Positions 5,694 to 37,131 of a DNA stretch of 37,131 nucleotides are shown piece after piece. The stretch spans positions 1 through 37,131 of IMG/VR virus record IMGVR_UViG_3300046794_000202. One strand, written 5' to 3'. The stretch is from a virus. The number at the start of each line of letters is the position of its first letter. The first letter of the stretch is position 1. The position numbers and the translations under genes were made by a program. The notes under the pieces are model-generated. The model was not told the DNA's origin and did no database searches. It worked only from the letters and a program-made list of their open reading frames with translations.

Positions 5694-6031
5694 GAGTAGA
5701 AGGCTCCGGAGATGTAATGAGCGGTGATCGAGGTGGCAGACCCGGCCAGCGCCTGTAGGAAGTCGCCGGCAGCCATGGTAGGAAGGTCGATGTCGAGGTA
5801 GTCGCCGGGCCCGATTGACCGGGCATTGACGATGGTGTTTCCGGTCCCGCCAGATCCCCCCGCAGGCACCGCACACGCGGTCACGGGGACGGCGACGCCA
5901 CTGGTGTTTGTGAATCGCACCCGGCCCCCGCGCAACAGCACGTTCGTGGGCGCGGTGTCAACCGTGAACAGCGTGGCGAGCGATGTGGTCAGGACCGTCG
6001 GCTGGAATGCCTTCTTGTAAGTGATTGCCAT
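5690..6031 (-). CDS. Small beta-rich virion protein, possibly decoration or tail accessory
   Basis: 113 aa, starting MAITYKKAFQPTVLTTSLA. The sequence alternates short hydrophobic strands with Thr/Val/Gly turns (VLLRGGRVRFTNTSGVAVPV, then ALAGSATSITAHYISGAF), typical of an all-beta sandwich. A Gly-rich loop (AGGSGGTGN) sits mid-protein. There is no signal peptide, membrane segment or catalytic motif. It lies between the coiled-coil tail protein and the oxygenase in the late operon, so a surface or tail role is likely but unproven. It may be a substrate of the adjacent enzymes. Confidence 0.6.
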   Translation of the reverse strand: MAITYKKAFQPTVLTTSLATLFTVDTAPTNVLLRGGRVRFTNTSGVAVPVTACAVPAGGSGGTGNTIVNARSIGPGDYLDIDLPTMAAGDFLQALAGSATSITAHYISGAFYS

Positions 6032-6040
6032 ATCTGTTCC

Positions 6041-6697
6041 TTATGCGGCTCGGAAAGTGATGCCATCGAGCGCGAAATACGCGTTGCTGCCCTTGTAGGC
6101 GACTACATCCCCATTGCTATCCACGTAGGCAGCGCCGAAAAGATCATTGCTCACCACTGGAAAGAAGTAGCGCGCAGCAGGCCGATACCCGGCTGGCAGC
6201 GTGAAGATCGCGTTACCAATTACGCCGCTCGTAGGGAAGCCCAGCAGATGCACAATGCCGAATGGGTCTTTGTAGTAGCCGACAAGCCTGCCGACCGTGT
6301 TGACCCACGAGTTCAGAAGCGAAGCCGGATTCGTCACCGGCTCCACGAACGACGTGTTCTGCGTCGGACGCTGGATGTCGGCGATCACAGATTCCAGTTC
6401 GTCCAGCTTGCTTTGCAGCTTCGTGACGTTCTGGGTCGTTTCCAGCCTGCCGGCCAGTTCCGAGATCGCCACGGACAGGTCGTGCAACCCGGTCGGCTGC
6501 ATTTCCAGCGCCTGGTCCTGCACCTGTTTCGTCAGATCCGTCAGGACAGCAATGATCGTGCTCAGGTCCGGCACCTGCCCACCGCCGACGGTCTTCGCCA
6601 GACCTTGGAAAAACAACCACCACGACCGGGAAATGTTGCCTTGCGCGTCCTGTAGCGGTTCCCGGTAGTTCGGGAGCGAAATCTGCGTCGTAGCCAT
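6041..6697 (-). CDS. Coiled-coil tail protein, candidate tail needle/plug
   Basis: 218 aa. The N-terminus (LPNYREPLQDAQGNISRSWW) resembles short particle-binding segments of podoviral tail proteins. Residues ~45-115 form heptad-like repeats (LSTIIAVLTDLTKQVQDQAL, ELAGRLETTQNVTKLQSKLD), suggesting a trimeric coiled coil. The C-terminal ~100 residues are a beta domain (GYRPAARYFFPVVSNDLFGA). The gene overlaps the stop of the gp10-like gene by one base, exactly where P22 has its tail needle gp26. That position and the coiled coil support a needle or thin fibre capping the tail channel; the globular C-terminus could touch the host. No direct homology to gp26 is visible to me. Confidence 0.6.
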   Translation of the reverse strand: MATTQISLPNYREPLQDAQGNISRSWWLFFQGLAKTVGGGQVPDLSTIIAVLTDLTKQVQDQALEMQPTGLHDLSVAISELAGRLETTQNVTKLQSKLDELESVIADIQRPTQNTSFVEPVTNPASLLNSWVNTVGRLVGYYKDPFGIVHLLGFPTSGVIGNAIFTLPAGYRPAARYFFPVVSNDLFGAAYVDSNGDVVAYKGSNAYFALDGITFRAA

Positions 6698-8115
6698 CAG
6701 TTACCGACGCCGGGCACGGCGTTCACGAATGCCCCGTTGAAAGCGATGGGCGCATTTGCACTGGTCCCGAGACGGAAGATGCGGTCCTGCCCAGATCCGA
6801 GGCGCGTTACGTTGACCTGCTTGCGGCTCTCACCTAACTTTCCAAGCGAGCGGATGACAGACGAGGACCACGACACGCCGCCGTCGTCGCTCCACTGGAT
6901 CCACACGTTCGGCTCGCTGCCGGCCTCGTCACCCACGCCCACCTGGCAGTCAATCCGCAGACGGGAATAGAACATCCGCACACCCTGCGAGTTGTGCGGC
7001 GAGTCCTTGAACCGCACGATCTCGTCGCCGTTGTCCTGATAGACGTTCATCGACAGTTGGTAGATGTTGCCGTTCTCGAAGTCACCGATCAGGTGCTTGG
7101 CGTCGAAGTACGCATGGCAATTGCCCCGGTGCCGGATCAGCGAACCATCATCCTGCCGGTATGCGCGCTCGTGCCACAGGCCGGTGGCCACGTCGAATAC
7201 CCACGTCTTGCTCGCCGTCGGGAAAACCAGCACGTAGAAGGTGTGCCCCTCCTGCTGGTAGGTCCACGAAAAGGCGTCATCCGTCCTAGAGTAGGTGTCA
7301 AATTCCTGCTCGATGGCGTGCGTGCTGACGCGCTGTGGCTGGTAGTTCGACGCCCGGAACACGATGTTTCCGCCGTTGCGGTCTCGGCCCAGCCAGTAGA
7401 TCGTGTTGTCCAGGCGGTTGATCGAGTGCGGTGCAACACATCCAACTTCATTGAATGCGCCCTGCACGCGCTGATACGGCTGGTCCTGATCACCGCTGTC
7501 GTAGAAGATTTCCAGGCTCTGCGGCCCCCAGAACCACAATTCCGCGTGATCGACCAGCATCGACACGATGGCGTCTGGCGAGCCTTCAGCACTGGCGAAG
7601 TCCAGCGGGTCCAGCGTCAGTTCGTACAGCCCCGTCCAGTAGAACTGCTGGGTATCGGGCTTGTTGAAGACGATCCGGCCATTCAGGAAATAGCAGAAAT
7701 CTGCGCCATACCAGCCGTCTCCGGACATGGCGCCCTGCGTGAAATCGGTAAGGTTGACCGTCGGCGCCGTGGTTGATCCATCCACGAACACCGCGTTGGT
7801 GCCGTTGTCGGTTGCAACCACCCGGCCGGCAGTCGATCCAAGCGTCCCCGACTCAACCCATGATCCGCCGTTGTAGCGGTATAGGGTTGCGCCGCGTACC
7901 GCAAACAGAATGCCGTTACTCGACACGTAGGCTCCGCGCACCGGCCCGGACCCCGGAATCGTGCTCCAGAGCGTGTATCCAGGCGTGCCGTAGAACGTCG
8001 TCTGCGACGGAGCATCGGGCGGGTTGATCTCGGGAAACAGGTTCACGCAGCGCTGTGCCGACGCCTTCTTGCTCCGCGCGGTGTAGGCGGCGGTGATGAG
8101 CTGGACGCGGGCCAT
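6697..8115 (-). CDS. Packaged DNA stabilization protein, P22 gp10-like tail hub
   Basis: 472 aa, starting MARVQLITAAYTARSKKASA. QRCVNLFPEINPP near the N-terminus followed by YGTPGY is characteristic of the P22 gp10 / phage stabilisation family. The remainder is a series of beta strands with Gly/Asp turns (YVSSNGILFAVRG, ATLYRYNGGSWVESGTLGS), compatible with a beta-propeller-like fold. In P22, six gp10 copies close the portal channel and anchor needle and tailspikes. It follows the gp4-like gene by one base, as in P22. Length matches the family. Confidence 0.88.
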   Translation of the reverse strand: MARVQLITAAYTARSKKASAQRCVNLFPEINPPDAPSQTTFYGTPGYTLWSTIPGSGPVRGAYVSSNGILFAVRGATLYRYNGGSWVESGTLGSTAGRVVATDNGTNAVFVDGSTTAPTVNLTDFTQGAMSGDGWYGADFCYFLNGRIVFNKPDTQQFYWTGLYELTLDPLDFASAEGSPDAIVSMLVDHAELWFWGPQSLEIFYDSGDQDQPYQRVQGAFNEVGCVAPHSINRLDNTIYWLGRDRNGGNIVFRASNYQPQRVSTHAIEQEFDTYSRTDDAFSWTYQQEGHTFYVLVFPTASKTWVFDVATGLWHERAYRQDDGSLIRHRGNCHAYFDAKHLIGDFENGNIYQLSMNVYQDNGDEIVRFKDSPHNSQGVRMFYSRLRIDCQVGVGDEAGSEPNVWIQWSDDGGVSWSSSVIRSLGKLGESRKQVNVTRLGSGQDRIFRLGTSANAPIAFNGAFVNAVPGVGN

Positions 8116-30359: not shown

Positions 30360-30650
30360 ATGGTACGCTTTGTAACAATTGCCAAGTTCTGCGAGCTGAC
30401 CGGATACACCCCGGCAGCCGTCTACACGCGGAAGTGCAAGGGCATTTGGCCCGAAGGCGGGGTCTGGCGATATGAGCCAGGCACCAAGAAAATCGTCATC
30501 GACATGGACGGCTACGAACGATGGGTCGAAAAGGGACAGGAGTCGCTATCGTTTCAGACTCCAGCTATGAAATCACCTTCACTTTCAAGGGCAAGCGTTG
30601 CCGCGAACGCGTCAAGGCGAAGCCCTGTCCTGCCAATACTCGAAAGCTAA
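30360..30650 (+). CDS. xis: Excisionase (Xis-like)
   Basis: 96 aa, starting MVRFVTIAKFCELTGYTPAA. The winged-helix start AKFCELTGYTPAAVYTRKCK with GIWPEGGVWRYEPGTKKIVI and DMDGYERWVEKG is typical of phage excisionases. It would bend attachment-site DNA and direct Int to excision. The last 130 bases overlap int in another frame, so the tail beyond residue ~60 is unlikely to be conserved. Confidence 0.82.
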   Translation: MVRFVTIAKFCELTGYTPAAVYTRKCKGIWPEGGVWRYEPGTKKIVIDMDGYERWVEKGQESLSFQTPAMKSPSLSRASVAANASRRSPVLPILES

Positions 30651-31753
30651 CGCAGTTCCGAGCGGCGATTCTCCACGCCATCGAGAAAGGCGAGTTCGAC
30701 TACGCGAAGACCTTCCCCAAATCCGGGCACGCCGCTGAACTTGCCGAGCGGCCCGGCGACGTCCTCACCGTCGAATCCTATTTCGACACCTGGCTGAAGC
30801 GGAAGAAGGTCGAACTAAAGGCTTCGACGTACAAGGGCTATGAGTTGATCGTGAACCGGTGGGTCATCCTGAAGTTCGGGAAACTTCCCCTCTCCGACTT
30901 GAAGCGCGCTCAAATCCGCGACTGGCTGGCCACAATCGACGCCGACAAAGACAAGGACAAGAAAGTCTCCAACAAGCGGCTGTCCAACATCCAGAGTTGC
31001 ATGCGTTCAGCCTTGGGCGACGCCGCTGCCGATGAAATCATTGATGCGAACCCGCTTGCCGGCTACACCTATACGCGCGCCGAGCGTCCCGCCGATGGCG
31101 AAGGCGGCGACGAAATCGACCCCCTGTCACCCGACGAGCAGAAAGCGGTGCTGGGAGCACTTCGTGCAAGCGACAGCAACATGATCCAGTTCGCCCTGTG
31201 GACTGGCATGCGAACTTCCGAATTCATCGCGCTGAACTGGTCCGACATCGACTTCGTGGGCGGCTACGTGCGCGTGCGCCGGGCGATGACCCGCGAGGCG
31301 AAGGGCGAAGCGGAGTTCCCTAAGACAGCGGCGGGCCGGCGCGACATCCGGCTCCTGGCACCTGCTGCCGCCGCGCTGGAAGCACAGAAGGCATTGACCT
31401 TTCTGGCCGCGCTCGACGGGCCTGTGTTCACGACTGCCGCGGGCGAAAGGTTCTCAGGATCGCATCAGGTGTGGCGTATCTGGCAGTCGGCCTTGAAGCG
31501 TGCCGGCGTGCGATACCGAAACCCATACCAGACCCGGCATACCTACGCCTCGATGATGCTGTCGGCTGGAGAGCACCCGATGTGGGTGGCAAAGCAAATG
31601 GGGCACGCAGATTGGACGATGATCGCCCGCGTGTATGGCCGCTGGATGCCGTCGGCGGATACCGAGGCCGGCAATCGGGCCGTTGAGAAGTTCGCCGGAA
31701 ATGCTGGCGAATTCACTGGCAAATCCACAGCAAAGCTGGCAAAAACAGGCTAG
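30521..31753 (+). CDS. int: Tyrosine-type integrase
   Basis: 410 aa, starting MGRKGTGVAIVSDSSYEITF. The N-terminal arm-binding domain (DUF3596 type: FKGKRCRERVKAKPCPANTR) is followed by a core-binding domain (YFDTWLKRKKVELKASTYKG) and a catalytic domain with WTGMRTSEFIALNW (Arg), YQTRHTYASMML (Arg, His) and the nucleophile Tyr in MIARVYGRWMP. The first His of the H-x-x-R box is Tyr here, a variant seen in this subfamily. It acts on attP 50-130 bp downstream. The start fits the usual M-x-R-K-G-T-G of the family. Confidence 0.93.
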   Translation: MGRKGTGVAIVSDSSYEITFTFKGKRCRERVKAKPCPANTRKLTQFRAAILHAIEKGEFDYAKTFPKSGHAAELAERPGDVLTVESYFDTWLKRKKVELKASTYKGYELIVNRWVILKFGKLPLSDLKRAQIRDWLATIDADKDKDKKVSNKRLSNIQSCMRSALGDAAADEIIDANPLAGYTYTRAERPADGEGGDEIDPLSPDEQKAVLGALRASDSNMIQFALWTGMRTSEFIALNWSDIDFVGGYVRVRRAMTREAKGEAEFPKTAAGRRDIRLLAPAAAALEAQKALTFLAALDGPVFTTAAGERFSGSHQVWRIWQSALKRAGVRYRNPYQTRHTYASMMLSAGEHPMWVAKQMGHADWTMIARVYGRWMPSADTEAGNRAVEKFAGNAGEFTGKSTAKLAKTG

Positions 31754-31885
31754 ATTTTTGCCAGCCATCAGTAAATAAGTCACTGATTCCAAACGAAATT
31801 TTGGTGCGAGGGAGGGGACTCGAACCCGCGCACAATGGCGTAACCGTGCGGCTCGGCAGCAAATGCTGGCAAAAAGCTGGCATTC
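31735..31885. other. attP: tRNA 3'-end core with arm-type repeats
   Basis: The core 31802-31827 is, on the minus strand, GGGTTCGAGTCCCCTCCCTC followed by GCACCA: the T-arm, acceptor stem and CCA end of a tRNA, probably tRNA-Leu. GCTGGCAAAAA occurs on the left at 31735-31745 and inverted at 31755-31765, and on the right at 31865-31875 followed by GCTGGCATT at 31876. Weaker copies lie at 31702 and 31715. This suits a lambda-type attP with Int arm sites on both sides. Confidence 0.8.
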
Positions 31886-31888
31886 GCT

Positions 31889-32092
31889 TCAATCCGACCC
31901 CGGCTCCCGCGAGTACGACGGGCAGGTCGCCAGCGGCACGAAGGCACTGTACGCACAGTCGAGGCGCATCCTCGGGTGGGGGTATTCCGCCGTTACCATG
32001 ATCTGCACCCGCGAGCACGTCCGGCACGCCCACTCTTCGGAGATCGAGTAGGACGGCATGGGTTCTGCTGGAGGATGGAAGTTTGTAGACAT
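31889..32092 (-). CDS. Candidate SOS-controlled small Cys protein
   Basis: 67 aa if started at 32092, or 56 aa from ATG at 32059 (MPSYSISEEWACRTCSRVQI). It contains a C-x2-C (WACRTCSRV) and two further Cys (RLDCAYSAF, LATCPSY), possibly a metal site. Third codon positions are very GC-rich, as in real genes here, but an antisense frame shares this. A LexA box starts five bases upstream of the first ATG, with a possible promoter (TTGATG at 32122-32127, TACAGT at 32099-32104, 17 bp spacing). It reads toward attP and int. It might be an antirepressor or toxin, but existence is unproven. Confidence 0.35.
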   Translation of the reverse strand: MSTNFHPPAEPMPSYSISEEWACRTCSRVQIMVTAEYPHPRMRLDCAYSAFVPLATCPSYSREPGSD

Positions 32093-32117: not shown

Positions 32118-32215
32118 TACGCATCAAGCTTGCCTAAAGAAAAGTGCGCATGCGGGCGCCCGGATACTCATTTTGTTCGAGCCGCGCGAAAAAAGTGCTG
32201 ATGTTGAGAGCAACC

Positions 32216-33511
32216 ATGGCCGTCTTGCGGCCTGATACAATCGCGCCCGACGCAAAAATCCACAAAAGTGACATGCTTGCAGTATGTGCATTGATCGCCC
32301 TTACTGGCTGGGCGATATCGGTCGGGAGCAGGCTGGGGCCAGGTAACCCGTTCGGGATCTTCTTCGGCCTGTGGCTTGTCATGTCGGTTGGCTTCATGGC
32401 CACCGGTGACACCTTCTACCCGCCATCTACCTACTTCTGGTTCCTCCTGGCGCTGCTTCTGGGGACGTACCTAGCGCTGGAGGTGGTTGCCGTCAGCCAC
32501 AAGGTGCCGCTGGCCGCGCCGGTGGGTACTGGCCTCGAGTACCGTGAAAAGTGGCTGAAGGTGGCCCAGTGGGTTTCCGTCGCATCGGTTCCGCTGATCT
32601 ACCTTGAGGCGAACGATTTGGCCGGCGGCGACATCTTCTCAGCGCTTGGCTACATGGCACTGCGCGGCGCGCTGACGGACGGCAGTGAGGGCTATGGGCC
32701 GCTGGGATACTTCGTACCGCTGGGCTTCGTGGTGGCGTCGATCAGGTTGATGCAGTTCGCATCTGACCGCCGAGGGTTCTGGGACATGGCCATATCGGTG
32801 GGAACGGCCGTGGCTATGGCGTTCCTGTGCACCGGGCGCACGTTCTTCCTGATGATGTTCTGCTTCCTCGTCTTCCCGCTGATCGTTTCCGGCAAGGTGC
32901 GCATGCGCGGCCTGGTCATGTTCGGCGCTCTGCTCGTGGCGTCATTCCTGATGATAGCGCTGATGACGCGCAAGGGCCTGGACCCTGACGCGAGCATGGT
33001 GGACAACATCGAAGGGCTGCTGAACATGCTCCGCGTGTACGTGCTGTCCCCGACGATGGCCATGGCCGTGGTGGTGGACGGCAATACCGATCCCATGGCA
33101 ATGGGCGGCTACTCGCTGCGATTCTTCCAGATCCTGATGGGCAAGTTGGCCGGCGTCGGCTTCGAGGCGCCCCCTCTGATCCGCGACTACGTGCAGGTAC
33201 CCGATGAGGTGAACGTATTCACGGTCATGGACCCCTACTTCCGGGACTTCGGCTTTGCCGGCGTGGTCGGGTTCGCGGTGCTCTCTGCCTCCCTGCACTT
33301 CGGTCTGTTCCGGGCCATGCAGCGCCGGGGCGGCCCGTGGATCTTCATCTACTCCGCGACCCTGTTCCCGCTGGTGATGCAGTTCTTCCAGGATATGTAT
33401 GCGACGCTGCTATCCACATGGGTACAGGTGTTCTTCTGGTTCCTGCTGCTGGTGAAAGAGACGAGCAGCGCCCCCAAATCCGCCTACGTTCCACTTCAAA
33501 ATGAAGCGTGA
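32216..33511 (+). CDS. O-antigen polymerase-like (Wzy) membrane protein
   Basis: 431 aa from ATG at 32216, chosen for GAGAG at good spacing; in-frame ATGs at 32144 and 32201 lack one. There are about ten or more membrane segments (AVCALIALTGWAISVGS, WLVMSVGFMATGDTFYPPST, FWFLLALLLGTYLALEVVAV and others), and a large periplasmic loop with ALGYMALRGALTDGSEGYG. This is the oligosaccharide repeat unit polymerase pattern. It would join O-units in the periplasm with an altered linkage, changing serotype in the lysogen. Its location between attP and the lysis genes is a standard conversion site. A LexA box lies about 100 bp upstream. Confidence 0.8.
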   Translation: MAVLRPDTIAPDAKIHKSDMLAVCALIALTGWAISVGSRLGPGNPFGIFFGLWLVMSVGFMATGDTFYPPSTYFWFLLALLLGTYLALEVVAVSHKVPLAAPVGTGLEYREKWLKVAQWVSVASVPLIYLEANDLAGGDIFSALGYMALRGALTDGSEGYGPLGYFVPLGFVVASIRLMQFASDRRGFWDMAISVGTAVAMAFLCTGRTFFLMMFCFLVFPLIVSGKVRMRGLVMFGALLVASFLMIALMTRKGLDPDASMVDNIEGLLNMLRVYVLSPTMAMAVVVDGNTDPMAMGGYSLRFFQILMGKLAGVGFEAPPLIRDYVQVPDEVNVFTVMDPYFRDFGFAGVVGFAVLSASLHFGLFRAMQRRGGPWIFIYSATLFPLVMQFFQDMYATLLSTWVQVFFWFLLLVKETSSAPKSAYVPLQNEA

Positions 33512-33701
33512 CCTCAAACGCCTTGCCTCCGTACTCTGGATGGCCGTCGGGATACCTGCACTCGGGCTGCTCTCTCACGAGCTCGAGCCGATGGATTCGA
33601 CGCTGTTCGCAGCCGCGTTCCTCTGGATCGCGGGCCTGATCCCGTCGATATCGTCCATCTTCTCGGAGCCTGCTTCCGGGTCGGCGGAGACGGGTCGGTA
33701 G
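33501..33701 (+). CDS. Small two-span membrane protein coupled to wzy
   Basis: 66 aa, starting MKRDLKRLASVLWMAVGIPA. The start overlaps the polymerase stop by 11 bases. Two hydrophobic spans (LASVLWMAVGIPALGLLS and STLFAAAFLWIAGLIPSISS) are joined by a short acidic loop. By analogy with phage D3, where a tiny protein inhibits the host polymerase next to a phage Wzy, it may silence the host Wzy (inference by layout only). It ends one base before the convergent Rz1 stop, with no terminator between. Confidence 0.65.
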   Translation: MKRDLKRLASVLWMAVGIPALGLLSHELEPMDSTLFAAAFLWIAGLIPSISSIFSEPASGSAETGR

Positions 33702-33702
33702 G

Positions 33703-33951
33703 TTACTTGCCCTTCGGCTTCCAGCCGCACTGCTTGGCGCCAGCAAGGTTGTGCGCCAGGATCGCAGCTGCGGTCGCGTCGGTAAGCACGTCCGCCTTAC
33801 TCACATAGATCGGCTTCGTCCAGTCACACCCGGTATCTACCGTCCGAGTGCGCGTGACGATCTGCGGTTCCGGGTCAGTCTCGGGACCAGTCTGCGCGCA
33901 GGCGGTCAGCAGACTCCCCAGCAGCGCCACCAGCAATCTCATTTTCCACAT
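33703..33951 (-). CDS. Rz1-like outer-membrane spanin lipoprotein
   Basis: 82 aa from ATG at 33949-33951, with GGGAG upstream. MWKMRLLVALLGSLLTACAQ is a lipoprotein signal with the lipobox LLTAC. The mature part has two Cys (DTGCDW, KQCGWK) that could pair. It starts within the Rz-like gene in another frame (77-base overlap), the classical Rz/Rz1 arrangement. It would join the Rz protein across the periplasm to fuse the membranes at lysis. Confidence 0.82.
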   Translation of the reverse strand: MWKMRLLVALLGSLLTACAQTGPETDPEPQIVTRTRTVDTGCDWTKPIYVSKADVLTDATAAAILAHNLAGAKQCGWKPKGK

Positions 33952-34183
33952 TGGTTCGCTCCCTCGATGCGTCGGCACCGGCGCGTGCGGCGGCGGCATT
34001 TGCTTCAGCTTCGGATTTCGCTGCCTGTGCTACCTTGGCCTCGGACTCGGCCACCTTCTGGCTGGCCTGCGCCTCGGCGGTCTGGGCCTGTTTGTGCCGA
34101 GCCCAGCCGGTGAGCAGCGCGACAATCGCGACGGCGCCACCGGCCAGCAGCGGCCACAGGTCGGAAAGGATGGCGGGGATCAT
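33875..34183 (-). CDS. Rz-like inner-membrane spanin
   Basis: 102 aa from ATG overlapping the endolysin stop (ATGA). MIPAILSDLWPLLAGGAVAI has one N-terminal membrane anchor, followed by a long Ala/Glu/Lys-rich coiled coil (ASQKVAESEAKVAQAAKSEA) reaching into the periplasm. Together with the overlapping Rz1 lipoprotein it forms the spanin that disrupts the outer membrane. Confidence 0.8.
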   Translation of the reverse strand: MIPAILSDLWPLLAGGAVAIVALLTGWARHKQAQTAEAQASQKVAESEAKVAQAAKSEAEANAAAARAGADASRERTNVENEIAGGAAGESADRLRADWSRD

Positions 34184-34674
34184 TTGATGACCTCCAGCCG
34201 GGCCAGCGTGTGATTGCCTGCCCATGTCTCCGGGCGTGGCTTGCCGGGGCGCCACGTGCGCAGGTAGAGCCCCCACGCGCCATCGGCGTCATCGATCTTG
34301 GGCAGGCGCAATGGATCGGTGAACAGCAGCAGCCGCGCCACGCCAGCGGCGAGCACGTCATCCGTCTCCATTGCGCGCCAGATGCTCTCCGGCAGGAACT
34401 GCACCCCGCGCGAGGCGCAGAGCCGGTCCAGCCAGAAACGGGATGCGTCGTGCAGGTAGACGCCCCACACCCCACCGCGCGTCTGCCTCGTGCCAAGTTC
34501 GAACTGCGGATACCCGCGCGCCGGACCGTTGCCCATCTGCTTGCGGTGGATCAGGCCGGATTCCTGTAGGCAGATGGCTATGACCATCACGCGGGCTTGT
34601 GGCGTGTCCATGGGTGCCGGCAGGATGCGGAGCGCGTCGGACAGAGGTCCACTGTTGAATTCACGCGCCAGCAT
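34180..34674 (-). CDS. Endolysin (lysozyme-like)
   Basis: 164 aa from ATG at 34672-34674, six bases after AAGGAGG; the GTG two codons upstream lies against that site. AICLQESGLIHRKQMGNGPA gives the likely catalytic Glu in QES, and ARGYPQFELGT is the usual second motif of this family. DDVLAAGVARLLLFTDPLRL and WRPGKPRPETWAGNH follow. I recall such proteins from Burkholderia and Bordetella podoviruses. No signal peptide is seen, so the holin would release it. The enzyme class (muramidase or transglycosylase) cannot be fixed. Confidence 0.7.
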   Translation of the reverse strand: MLAREFNSGPLSDALRILPAPMDTPQARVMVIAICLQESGLIHRKQMGNGPARGYPQFELGTRQTRGGVWGVYLHDASRFWLDRLCASRGVQFLPESIWRAMETDDVLAAGVARLLLFTDPLRLPKIDDADGAWGLYLRTWRPGKPRPETWAGNHTLARLEVIK

Positions 34675-34930
34675 CGTCACCCTCCTTCTTCTCGTCGCGC
34701 CGGCGTACGGACGTGTAGCGCACGAAGATCATCAGCACGAAGGCTGCGGTGGACACCCATCGAGCCGTGCCCTCAGGGAGCGCGCCCTTCAGGTCTGACG
34801 GCAACAGGTTCCACGTATCGACCAGCGTCGGCCCGAAGGCCGTCACCATTGCGAAGAAGGTAGCGAGCACCACAGTGCCGCGCTTGTGAAGCTGACGCCA
34901 GCCATCAGCTAGTCCAAGTCGAAAGTTCAT
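34661..34930 (-). CDS. Holin
   Basis: 89 aa from ATG overlapping the previous stop by four bases; a GTG three codons upstream is an alternative. Two membrane segments (TVVLATFFAMVTAFGPTLVD and WVSTAAFVLMIFVRYTSVRR) are separated by a short loop, with a charged C-terminus (RRRDEKKEGDDAGA). This is the layout of class II holins (DUF7940-like). It would form the membrane lesion that frees the endolysin. Its end overlaps the endolysin start by 14 bases. Confidence 0.78.
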   Translation of the reverse strand: MNFRLGLADGWRQLHKRGTVVLATFFAMVTAFGPTLVDTWNLLPSDLKGALPEGTARWVSTAAFVLMIFVRYTSVRRRDEKKEGDDAGA

Positions 34931-35244
34931 CGCGTCCACCTCTTGATGTCGGGCCGCTGCCCTGCGGCGTTGTCGAGCAGGTAGTCGCGGATCTTCTCGA
35001 CGTTCTGCCCGATGGCGTTGAGCTTTTCCGTTGTCTCCTGTCGCTGTCGCTCAATTGCCGCGTCAGTCCGCGCAAAGCGTTCGTCGTAGGTGAGCGCCTT
35101 GCTCTGCAGCGCTTTCACGTCCGTGATCACGCTCAGGTAGATGCCGACGCCAGCAACGACCGCGAGGATCATGCTGACGACGAGCGATTGCACGTTGATC
35201 GTGAAATCCAGCCAGCGCTTCGGCTTTTCCTGCTGTGCTTCCAT
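34927..35244 (-). CDS. Single-span coiled-coil protein, possible antiholin or lysis accessory
   Basis: 105 aa from ATG at 35242-35244, preceded by GGGGGG. MEAQQEKPKRWLDFTINVQS is followed by one membrane span (LVVSMILAVVAGVGIYLSVI) and a periplasmic or cytoplasmic coiled coil (RTDAAIERQRQETTEKLNAI). It lies between tailspike and holin, coupled to the latter. It could regulate the holin. Family not identified with certainty. Confidence 0.65.
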   Translation of the reverse strand: MEAQQEKPKRWLDFTINVQSLVVSMILAVVAGVGIYLSVITDVKALQSKALTYDERFARTDAAIERQRQETTEKLNAIGQNVEKIRDYLLDNAAGQRPDIKRWTR

Positions 35245-35270: not shown

Positions 35271-37131
35271 TTACGTAATCGTCGCGAAGACCTGAGACCA
35301 GTCGTTGTTCAGGACGTTGTTGGACCCTGTGTTCAGACGTGACCAGCCGATCATGATCTTTCCGCCCGACTGCACCGGAACGTCGTTCTTGACGAAGGTT
35401 CCGAAGAACCAGACGCCAGACGTGGGAATCGAGTTGGTGTTTGTCCAGCCGAGCACGTTTTCCGTGCGGATAGCGGCATCGTTGGTCGCGCCCTGATTGG
35501 CATAGCCGGTCCAGTCGCAGTTCTGCACCAGACAACCCGTGCCGAACGTCACCTGATTGCCGGGTTCATTGCGGAAGGCGCGCAGCACCGTGCCGTCGTA
35601 CGGCGCATCGACGCTGTAGATTATGTTCGTCTGCGTGATCGCTCCGCGGCCTTCGTTGTGGCACTGCACAGCGAATGGGGAGCCGCCGCCGACCGAACCG
35701 AACGCACGGCCGCGCACGCGACCCCGGAAGACATTGGTCACACGGTGCGCGGCACCGTTATAGTTCGTGATTTCGCCCCGGATGTCGAAGTCGGTCAAGG
35801 CATTGGCGCGGCCGTAGAAAATGCCGTTCGTGACATTGTTCATCGTCCAGTCGGCTTCCACGCGCTGGGAAAAATCGTGCGTCACGCCCTCGCCGCGCAC
35901 TGAGTCGTAAGAGAGCGAGCCGCGCACCTTCAGGTCTGCCACTCGGGTGAATGGCGTCGCCGTCAGCGAAGCGCCCGTGGTGCCCGTCTTCAGGATGCGG
36001 CATCCCTGAATCGTGATGCCGAAGCAATTCCAGTCGCGATTCGCGTCGTTACCGGAGATCGACTTGCCGAAGACACCAAGCCCGGAAGTCCCAGCGGTGA
36101 CGATCTCTGCATAACCGATGCGAATATTGGCGCAGGTCTGGTAGCCCTGATCCGGCTCGATATCGACCCCGCCAGGCATGATGAAACTGCCGATGGTGCC
36201 CCCTACATTGATCGATCGAACATCATCGATGTCGATGAACGTGCCGGAGATAATCGAGATCGTGTTGCGGCCATCATTGGCCGAGTTGAGCGCGCTGACC
36301 GAGCCGACCTTGATGCGGGTGGAGTTCGCGCTGTTGGCCGTCCAATCCTGCTGCCCGATGTACAGACCATCGCCGCGGATTTCGTTGAACTCGAGGCTCG
36401 GCAATTCGACATCTGCCGCTCCCGCCAGACCCACGCAGATGATCTGCTCGCGCGCGGTCATGGCTGCCCGATTACCATTCCAGCGCAGACTGGCCTTAAC
36501 GCCGCCGCAGTTGCGGATCAGCACACCGACCCATCCCCCGCTGAAGTTTGAATTACCGCCGTCAGGCTTCAATTGAAGCGTGCCGCGGCATTCGATACGC
36601 GTGTTGTTGTAGGTGCCCCCGTCAAGCATGATGCCAGCGCACAGGAACGTCTTGCCCGCGTCGATGACGACCAGCTTTCCCTTCATGCCGTCAACGGCCT
36701 TCTGGATCGCCACGCTGTCATCGGTGGTGCCGTCTCCCTTGGCGCCGAACTGGCAAACGCTGGCCCAGCTTTGCCCGTGCGTCAGCTTCCAGCGCGCGCC
36801 GTCGCTGGCCACGATGATCGTGCCGTTGTTGTCAGCGCTAGTGGTATCGCTGGCGTCATACCAGTACGGGCCACCGCCGCCGTCACCAGCAGCGTAGTAG
36901 CCCGTCACGAAAGCACGCGTGTACTTGGTCTTGTCGAGCGCGCGCAGTTGGGCAATCGTATCGACCACCCGCAGCAGTCGCGACTTGAAGAACTGATCGA
37001 GCGTCGTCCCGTCGTAGCCGATCAGCGTGGCGCCGTTGTCGCCGCTCAGGTCTGATGCGCTGATCGCTGCATTGACGTTATCGCGGTCCCAGATCGTGGC
37101 GCCGAATGAGTTCTTGAGTACGAAGCGGTAA
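35271..37131 (-). CDS. Tailspike, main part (gene starts across the circular join at 329)
   Basis: This carries the remainder of the 687-aa protein from base 37005; bases 37006-37131 repeat 1-126. After the N-terminal domain, TLDQFFKSRLLRVVDTIAQL leads to FGAKGDGTTDDSVAIQKAVD, the pectate-lyase-3 start of a right-handed beta-helix. Many short strands with Asn/Gly turns follow (IECRGTLQLKPDGGN, AVQCHNEGRGAITQTNII), then a C-terminal beta domain. It would bind, and possibly cut, a surface polysaccharide. The catalytic acids cannot be read from sequence alone. No intramolecular chaperone signature is obvious. Confidence 0.85.
   Translation of the reverse strand, partial: YRFVLKNSFGATIWDRDNVNAAISASDLSGDNGATLIGYDGTTLDQFFKSRLLRVVDTIAQLRALDKTKYTRAFVTGYYAAGDGGGGPYWYDASDTTSADNNGTIIVASDGARWKLTHGQSWASVCQFGAKGDGTTDDSVAIQKAVDGMKGKLVVIDAGKTFLCAGIMLDGGTYNNTRIECRGTLQLKPDGGNSNFSGGWVGVLIRNCGGVKASLRWNGNRAAMTAREQIICVGLAGAADVELPSLEFNEIRGDGLYIGQQDWTANSANSTRIKVGSVSALNSANDGRNTISIISGTFIDIDDVRSINVGGTIGSFIMPGGVDIEPDQGYQTCANIRIGYAEIVTAGTSGLGVFGKSISGNDANRDWNCFGITIQGCRILKTGTTGASLTATPFTRVADLKVRGSLSYDSVRGEGVTHDFSQRVEADWTMNNVTNGIFYGRANALTDFDIRGEITNYNGAAHRVTNVFRGRVRGRAFGSVGGGSPFAVQCHNEGRGAITQTNIIYSVDAPYDGTVLRAFRNEPGNQVTFGTGCLVQNCDWTGYANQGATNDAAIRTENVLGWTNTNSIPTSGVWFFGTFVKNDVPVQSGGKIMIGWSRLNTGSNNVLNNDWSQVFATIT
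37006..37131. repeat. Terminal direct repeat, right copy
   Basis: Identical to bases 1-126. See the left copy for interpretation as circular overlap. Confidence 0.95.

Follow-up and report, generated by a model that had tools for sequence, protein, structure and literature searches.

The window, that is, the whole stretch of 37,131 bases that we analyzed (virus record IMGVR_UViG_3300046794_000202), carries a wzy-like polymerase gene and an overlapping gene for a 66-a.a membrane protein (p66), both placed between the phage attachment site and the lysis genes. On balance, and judging from sequence comparisons, we favor reading the two as lysogenic-conversion cargo of a temperate Cupriavidus-type phage, in which p66 would probably provide an independent second exclusion layer. 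The polymerase probably re-links sugars on the host surface, and the two products together probably exclude other phages.

Genome organization, integration site and likely host

A 126-base direct repeat at its two ends (1-126 and 37006-37131) makes the window look like a complete genome whose assembly overlaps itself. Nucleotide searches against phages returned no match, either for the lysis/wzy region or for the first 25 kb of the window. The right part of the genome runs in the order integrase, attP, four-cysteine gene, wzy, and p66, with Rz1, Rz, the probable endolysin, holin, and tailspike following on the opposite strand:

30521..31753, + strand, tyrosine integrase (Pfam Phage_integrase 1.8e-18; phrog_1 5e-66)
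31802..31827, no strand, attP core (26-nt identity with the 3′ end of Cupriavidus tRNA-Leu(TAG))
31889..32092, − strand, small four-cysteine protein, 67 a.a (zinc-ribbon-like by eye; conserved part of the att-proximal slot)
32216..33511, + strand, wzy-like oligosaccharide repeat unit polymerase, 431 a.a (TIGR04370, E 1.6e-43)
33501..33701, + strand, p66, two-span membrane protein, 66 a.a (homologues: p54 and 95-a.a proteins)
33703..33999, − strand, outer spanin (Rz1-like; phrog_1275 2e-23)
33875..34276, − strand, inner spanin (Rz-like; phrog_1026 8e-6)
34180..34680, − strand, lysis-cassette gene, probable endolysin by position (phrog_3108 8e-41, a PHROG of unknown function)
34661..34939, − strand, holin (phrog_1356 7e-14)
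35271..36968, − strand, tailspike (N-terminal matches to PHROG tail fibre/EPS depolymerase families; pectate-lyase-like PF12708 just below the cut-off)

The first-pass annotation had described a polymerase-like gene and an overlapping two-span 66-a.a gene between attP and the lysis cassette, and both its coordinates and its description were right. Its further suggestion of a β-helical tailspike recognizing surface polysaccharide agrees with the depolymerase-type N-terminus and the near-threshold Pfam match listed above. The Rz1-like gene is convergent with p66, lies 1 nt from the p66 stop codon, and forms the boundary of the cargo slot; being enclosed between attP and this gene, the cargo would sit at one end of the prophage, on the strand that does not encode the lysis genes.

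The tRNA-Leu(TAG) identity of the attP match was assigned by ARAGORN, and a 25-nt core of attP was found with at most one mismatch in 59 of the 60 Cupriavidus genomes sampled. Repeats of the GCTGGCAAA type occur around attP at 31735, 31757 (inverted), and 31865, and may be candidate integrase arm sites. Prophages in two Cupriavidus genomes (G045 and G047) encode lysis proteins 81–84% identical to those of the window. Given this similarity and the match of attP to a tRNA-Leu(TAG) end, the phage host is likely Cupriavidus or a close relative.

The polymerase and its exchangeable slot

The 431-a.a protein had been called O-antigen polymerase-like from the letters alone, and its TIGR04370 match bears this out: it scores 149 bits with the NCBIfam model (cut-off 40) over residues 44–411 of 431, and the protein shows ~10 transmembrane (TM) segments by hydropathy, where about 10–14 spans are expected of the polymerase family. 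By these measures, it is a clear member of the TIGR04370 family. Its reading frame ends at 33511 and offers possible starts at 32144 (GTG), 32201, and 32216 (ATG, preceded by GAGAG near −10). Neither a PDB sequence search nor a Pfam search, the latter including Wzy_C, gave a match, and an AlphaFold model built from a 3-row alignment had a pLDDT of 41, too low for use in judging a GT-C-type polymerase fold.

In the phage collection searched, the sole match to the window Wzy was HkcF of HK620. The two share membership of TIGR04370 and the placement of the gene at a temperate phage genome end beside a tailspike, but HkcF is only 26% identical over 40% of the length and has no annotated small overlapping partner. 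Closer homologues had identities of 57% (L004, C. pauculus), 48% (G018), 42% (L002/G017), and ~36% (G034). The G034 homologue lies between flippase-like and glycosyltransferase-like genes, both read by eye from translations, an arrangement expected for a Wzx/Wzy cluster. The L004 homologue (6010-7296) is an orphan, alone on the C. pauculus chromosome among housekeeping-like neighbors (aminotransferase-like and transglycosylase-like). In L002 (5941-8645), a prophage of another phage, the wzy homologue comes straight after the tailspike and ahead of a gene with a twin-arginine-like start.

What relatives carry at the same position was surveyed with the 34180..34680 lysis gene as an anchor. This gene has relatives in 18 viral contigs, and we read those loci that reached beyond the spanins, together with the Cupriavidus prophages. 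The slot in relatives is bounded by a spanin on one side and an att end on the other, and its occupants differ. It holds an AT3-SGNH acyltransferase in L006 and L061 (Pfam) and in L008 (by eye), an LbetaH (hexapeptide) acyltransferase in L011, a GDSL hydrolase in L012, and nothing recognizable in the G047 prophage of L060. On contig C163 of G045, a different prophage carries a divergent TIGR04370 Wzy beside Rz/Rz1-like genes and the same small cysteine gene, past which a tRNA-like att sequence could be seen by eye. Homologues of the window four-cysteine protein (50–63% identical) likewise stand beside AT3-SGNH cargo (L006, L008) and beside wzy (G018, G045). From this comparison of loci, the attP–Rz1 interval is an exchangeable site for surface-modifying cargo, and these interchangeable occupants give the strongest support for conversion. 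Lysogenic glycan conversion by the phage Wzy is accordingly the part of the earlier serotype-conversion proposal that stands, well supported by family, position, and slot occupants.

Which polymer the enzyme would act on bears on how the conversion is described. TIGR04370 is not specific to O-antigen, and Wzc-type Wzz-domain proteins occur in Cupriavidus genomes, so that an exopolysaccharide or capsule rather than the LPS O-antigen could be the substrate. The slot neighbors in relatives point the other way in that they resemble a known O-antigen acetylase: the L006 acyltransferase is homologous to the D3 enzyme (97% coverage, 5e-51). We consider the other-polymer substrate rather unlikely. Between the attP and lysis genes of the window itself, no O-acetylase gene was found.

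The 66-a.a protein and its relatives

With 302 open reading frames of at least 50 a.a in the window at 61% GC, a 66-a.a frame is in itself weak evidence of a gene. The case that p66 is a real gene comes from its homologues (35–39% identity). A genome search recovered p54 in G018, which overlaps the end of the wzy homologue by 8 nt, and 95-a.a homologues in two G047 prophages; two more 95-a.a homologues (L070, L071) came from an alignment search. In shuffles that kept the hydrophobic segments, p66 scored z ~13 against p54 and against the 95-a.a proteins. Its codon-position GC (0.61/0.52/0.79) is similar to that of the neighboring genes. The p66 frame overlaps the end of wzy by 11 nt and shows no evident Shine-Dalgarno sequence of its own. 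Two TM segments are predicted, and the AlphaFold model is a helical hairpin of modest confidence (pLDDT 64).

Other searches did not extend the family. No match was obtained in the p66 family search (PHROG and PADLOC included), no relative in the single-sequence search of phages and viral contigs, and none by tblastn of the p66 family against phages and plasmids. Matches antisense in glnE (L062, by eye) and others at E 1e-3 or weaker were taken as chance.

The 95-a.a homologues are predicted to have three spans and lie antisense among internal-virion genes:

L059 4056-4340, antisense, 95-a.a three-span p66 homologue
L060 13023-13307, antisense, 95-a.a three-span p66 homologue
L070 and L071 5989-6276, antisense, 95-a.a three-span p66 homologues

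They are flanked on one side by a transglycosylase-type internal-virion gene and on the other by a gene for a virion protein (phrog_684, as tested in L070), and no wzy homologue occurs within the locus DNA examined in any of the four. Their reading frame is supported by an excess of differences at third codon positions (19/40, 16/30, and 19/38). Conversely, Wzy is found without p66 in L004, in L002/G017, and in the equivalent slot of G045. Judged by these homologues, p66 is one of a small family of phage membrane proteins that moves independently.

The overlap of wzy with a member of the p66 family was seen twice, in the window and in G018, which would also fit a functional link between the two genes. 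The G018 locus (L058 8061-10283) consists of a tRNA-Ser(GGA) followed within ~2 kb by a cysteine gene, wzy, and p54, and then by a phage-type small gene; it looks like a prophage relic retaining the conversion cassette. In an empty-site comparison of this tRNA-Ser element, the flanks were not common beyond the tRNA.

In one form of such a link, the phage Wzy would depend for its activity on p66 as an accessory subunit, through stability, assembly, or chain length. The translational overlap in two diverged loci fits this; the existence of Wzy homologues without p66, one of them 57% identical, and of p66 homologues far from any wzy makes it distinctly unlikely in our estimation. Proximity to the spanins and the two predicted spans could instead recall a holin or antiholin-like protein that times lysis. 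Yet p66 is encoded on the strand opposite to the cassette, the cassette already has a holin, and relatives with the same lysis cassette have no p66 there, all of which renders a lysis-timing role highly improbable.

Comparison with D3 and with exclusion proteins

The earlier proposal had modeled the pair on phage D3, with the 66-a.a protein in the part of the inhibitor, and this half of it is not supported. In D3, Iap is a 31-a.a peptide reported to mimic TM2 of Wzz (PMC12004945; PMC4815439), and an equivalent p66 would inhibit the host Wzy, or its partnership with Wzz, while the phage Wzy makes a new linkage. The overlapping genes in the window and G018, the presence of a small membrane protein in both phages, and the location of the D3 unit (Iap, O-acetylase, Wzy-β), whose surface-glycan genes likewise lie close to attP and the lysis genes, are all in keeping with such a role. 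The D3 acetylase is also homologous to the sister-phage acetyltransferase of the same slot. Iap showed no similarity to p66 (z 0.9), p54 (z −1.3), or the 95-a.a protein (z −0.1), and p66, p54, and the 95-a.a protein were also without similarity to the TM1 segments of Cupriavidus Wzz-type proteins. D3 Wzy-β matches Pfam Wzy_C, though below the cut-off, and does not match TIGR04370, the reverse of the window Wzy, and the search for homology between the two polymerases gave no significant match (best E 1.1). Furthermore, the D3 genes are not linked to one another and occupy both strands, whereas the window wzy and p66 overlap.

The distribution of the two genes also tells against the D3-like arrangement, with four loci holding p66 homologues and no nearby wzy. 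Apart from the window and HK620, five wzy loci entered the comparison, a number too small for co-occurrence statistics; the partner is absent where the polymerase is kept in three of them, both are kept in G018, and no p66 match was found in G034 in the loci compared. Since none of the five is a close relative of the window phage, this outcome is suggestive and not decisive. Taken together, we regard a D3-like inhibitor role for p66 as unlikely, and the window pair does not emerge as a copy of the D3 polymerase-and-inhibitor system; as a parallel, D3 does fit the polymerase as cargo.

A function of its own is likelier for p66 than that of an obligatory Iap-type inhibitor, because its relatives without wzy are found in sister phages, amid genes for DNA ejection. 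HK97 gp15 and P22 SieA are small phage inner-membrane exclusion proteins, and p66 is likewise small with two predicted spans. HK97 gp15 is cited as an exclusion protein blocking DNA injection (PMC10883804). The gp15 gene, an annotated moron, adjoins the tape-measure gene, much as the 95-a.a homologues lie among internal-virion genes; the window p66, unlike gp15, is beside wzy and not beside ejection genes. Homology to gp15 was rejected, with no sequence similarity to p66. Independent exclusion by p66 is our preferred reading, held with low confidence and by guilt of location.

Under this preferred reading, the phage Wzy would work on the periplasmic side of the inner membrane, where it would connect lipid-linked O-units of the host, or repeats like them, through a linkage of its own, altering the surface glycan. 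Phages whose tailspikes read the old glycan would then adsorb less. The p66 protein, whose translation is probably coupled to the end of wzy, would sit in the inner membrane as a predicted two-helix hairpin and probably act on DNA entry as a second layer of exclusion. More tentatively, and with some doubt, p66 may found a small family of mobile membrane exclusion proteins acting on DNA ejection; one of them would here have been recruited behind a Wzy through an overlapping gene, so that a single cassette would both change the receptor and block entry.

A brief search of the open-access literature found no dedicated paper on a surface-conversion slot in Cupriavidus-type phages; the loci compared here place an exchangeable slot of this kind in these phages. 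A phage wzy with a nearby small membrane protein is read through the D3 paradigm. Because p66 homologues occur with and without wzy, the two genes can be tested apart, and the case suggests that the small partner need not be a polymerase inhibitor.
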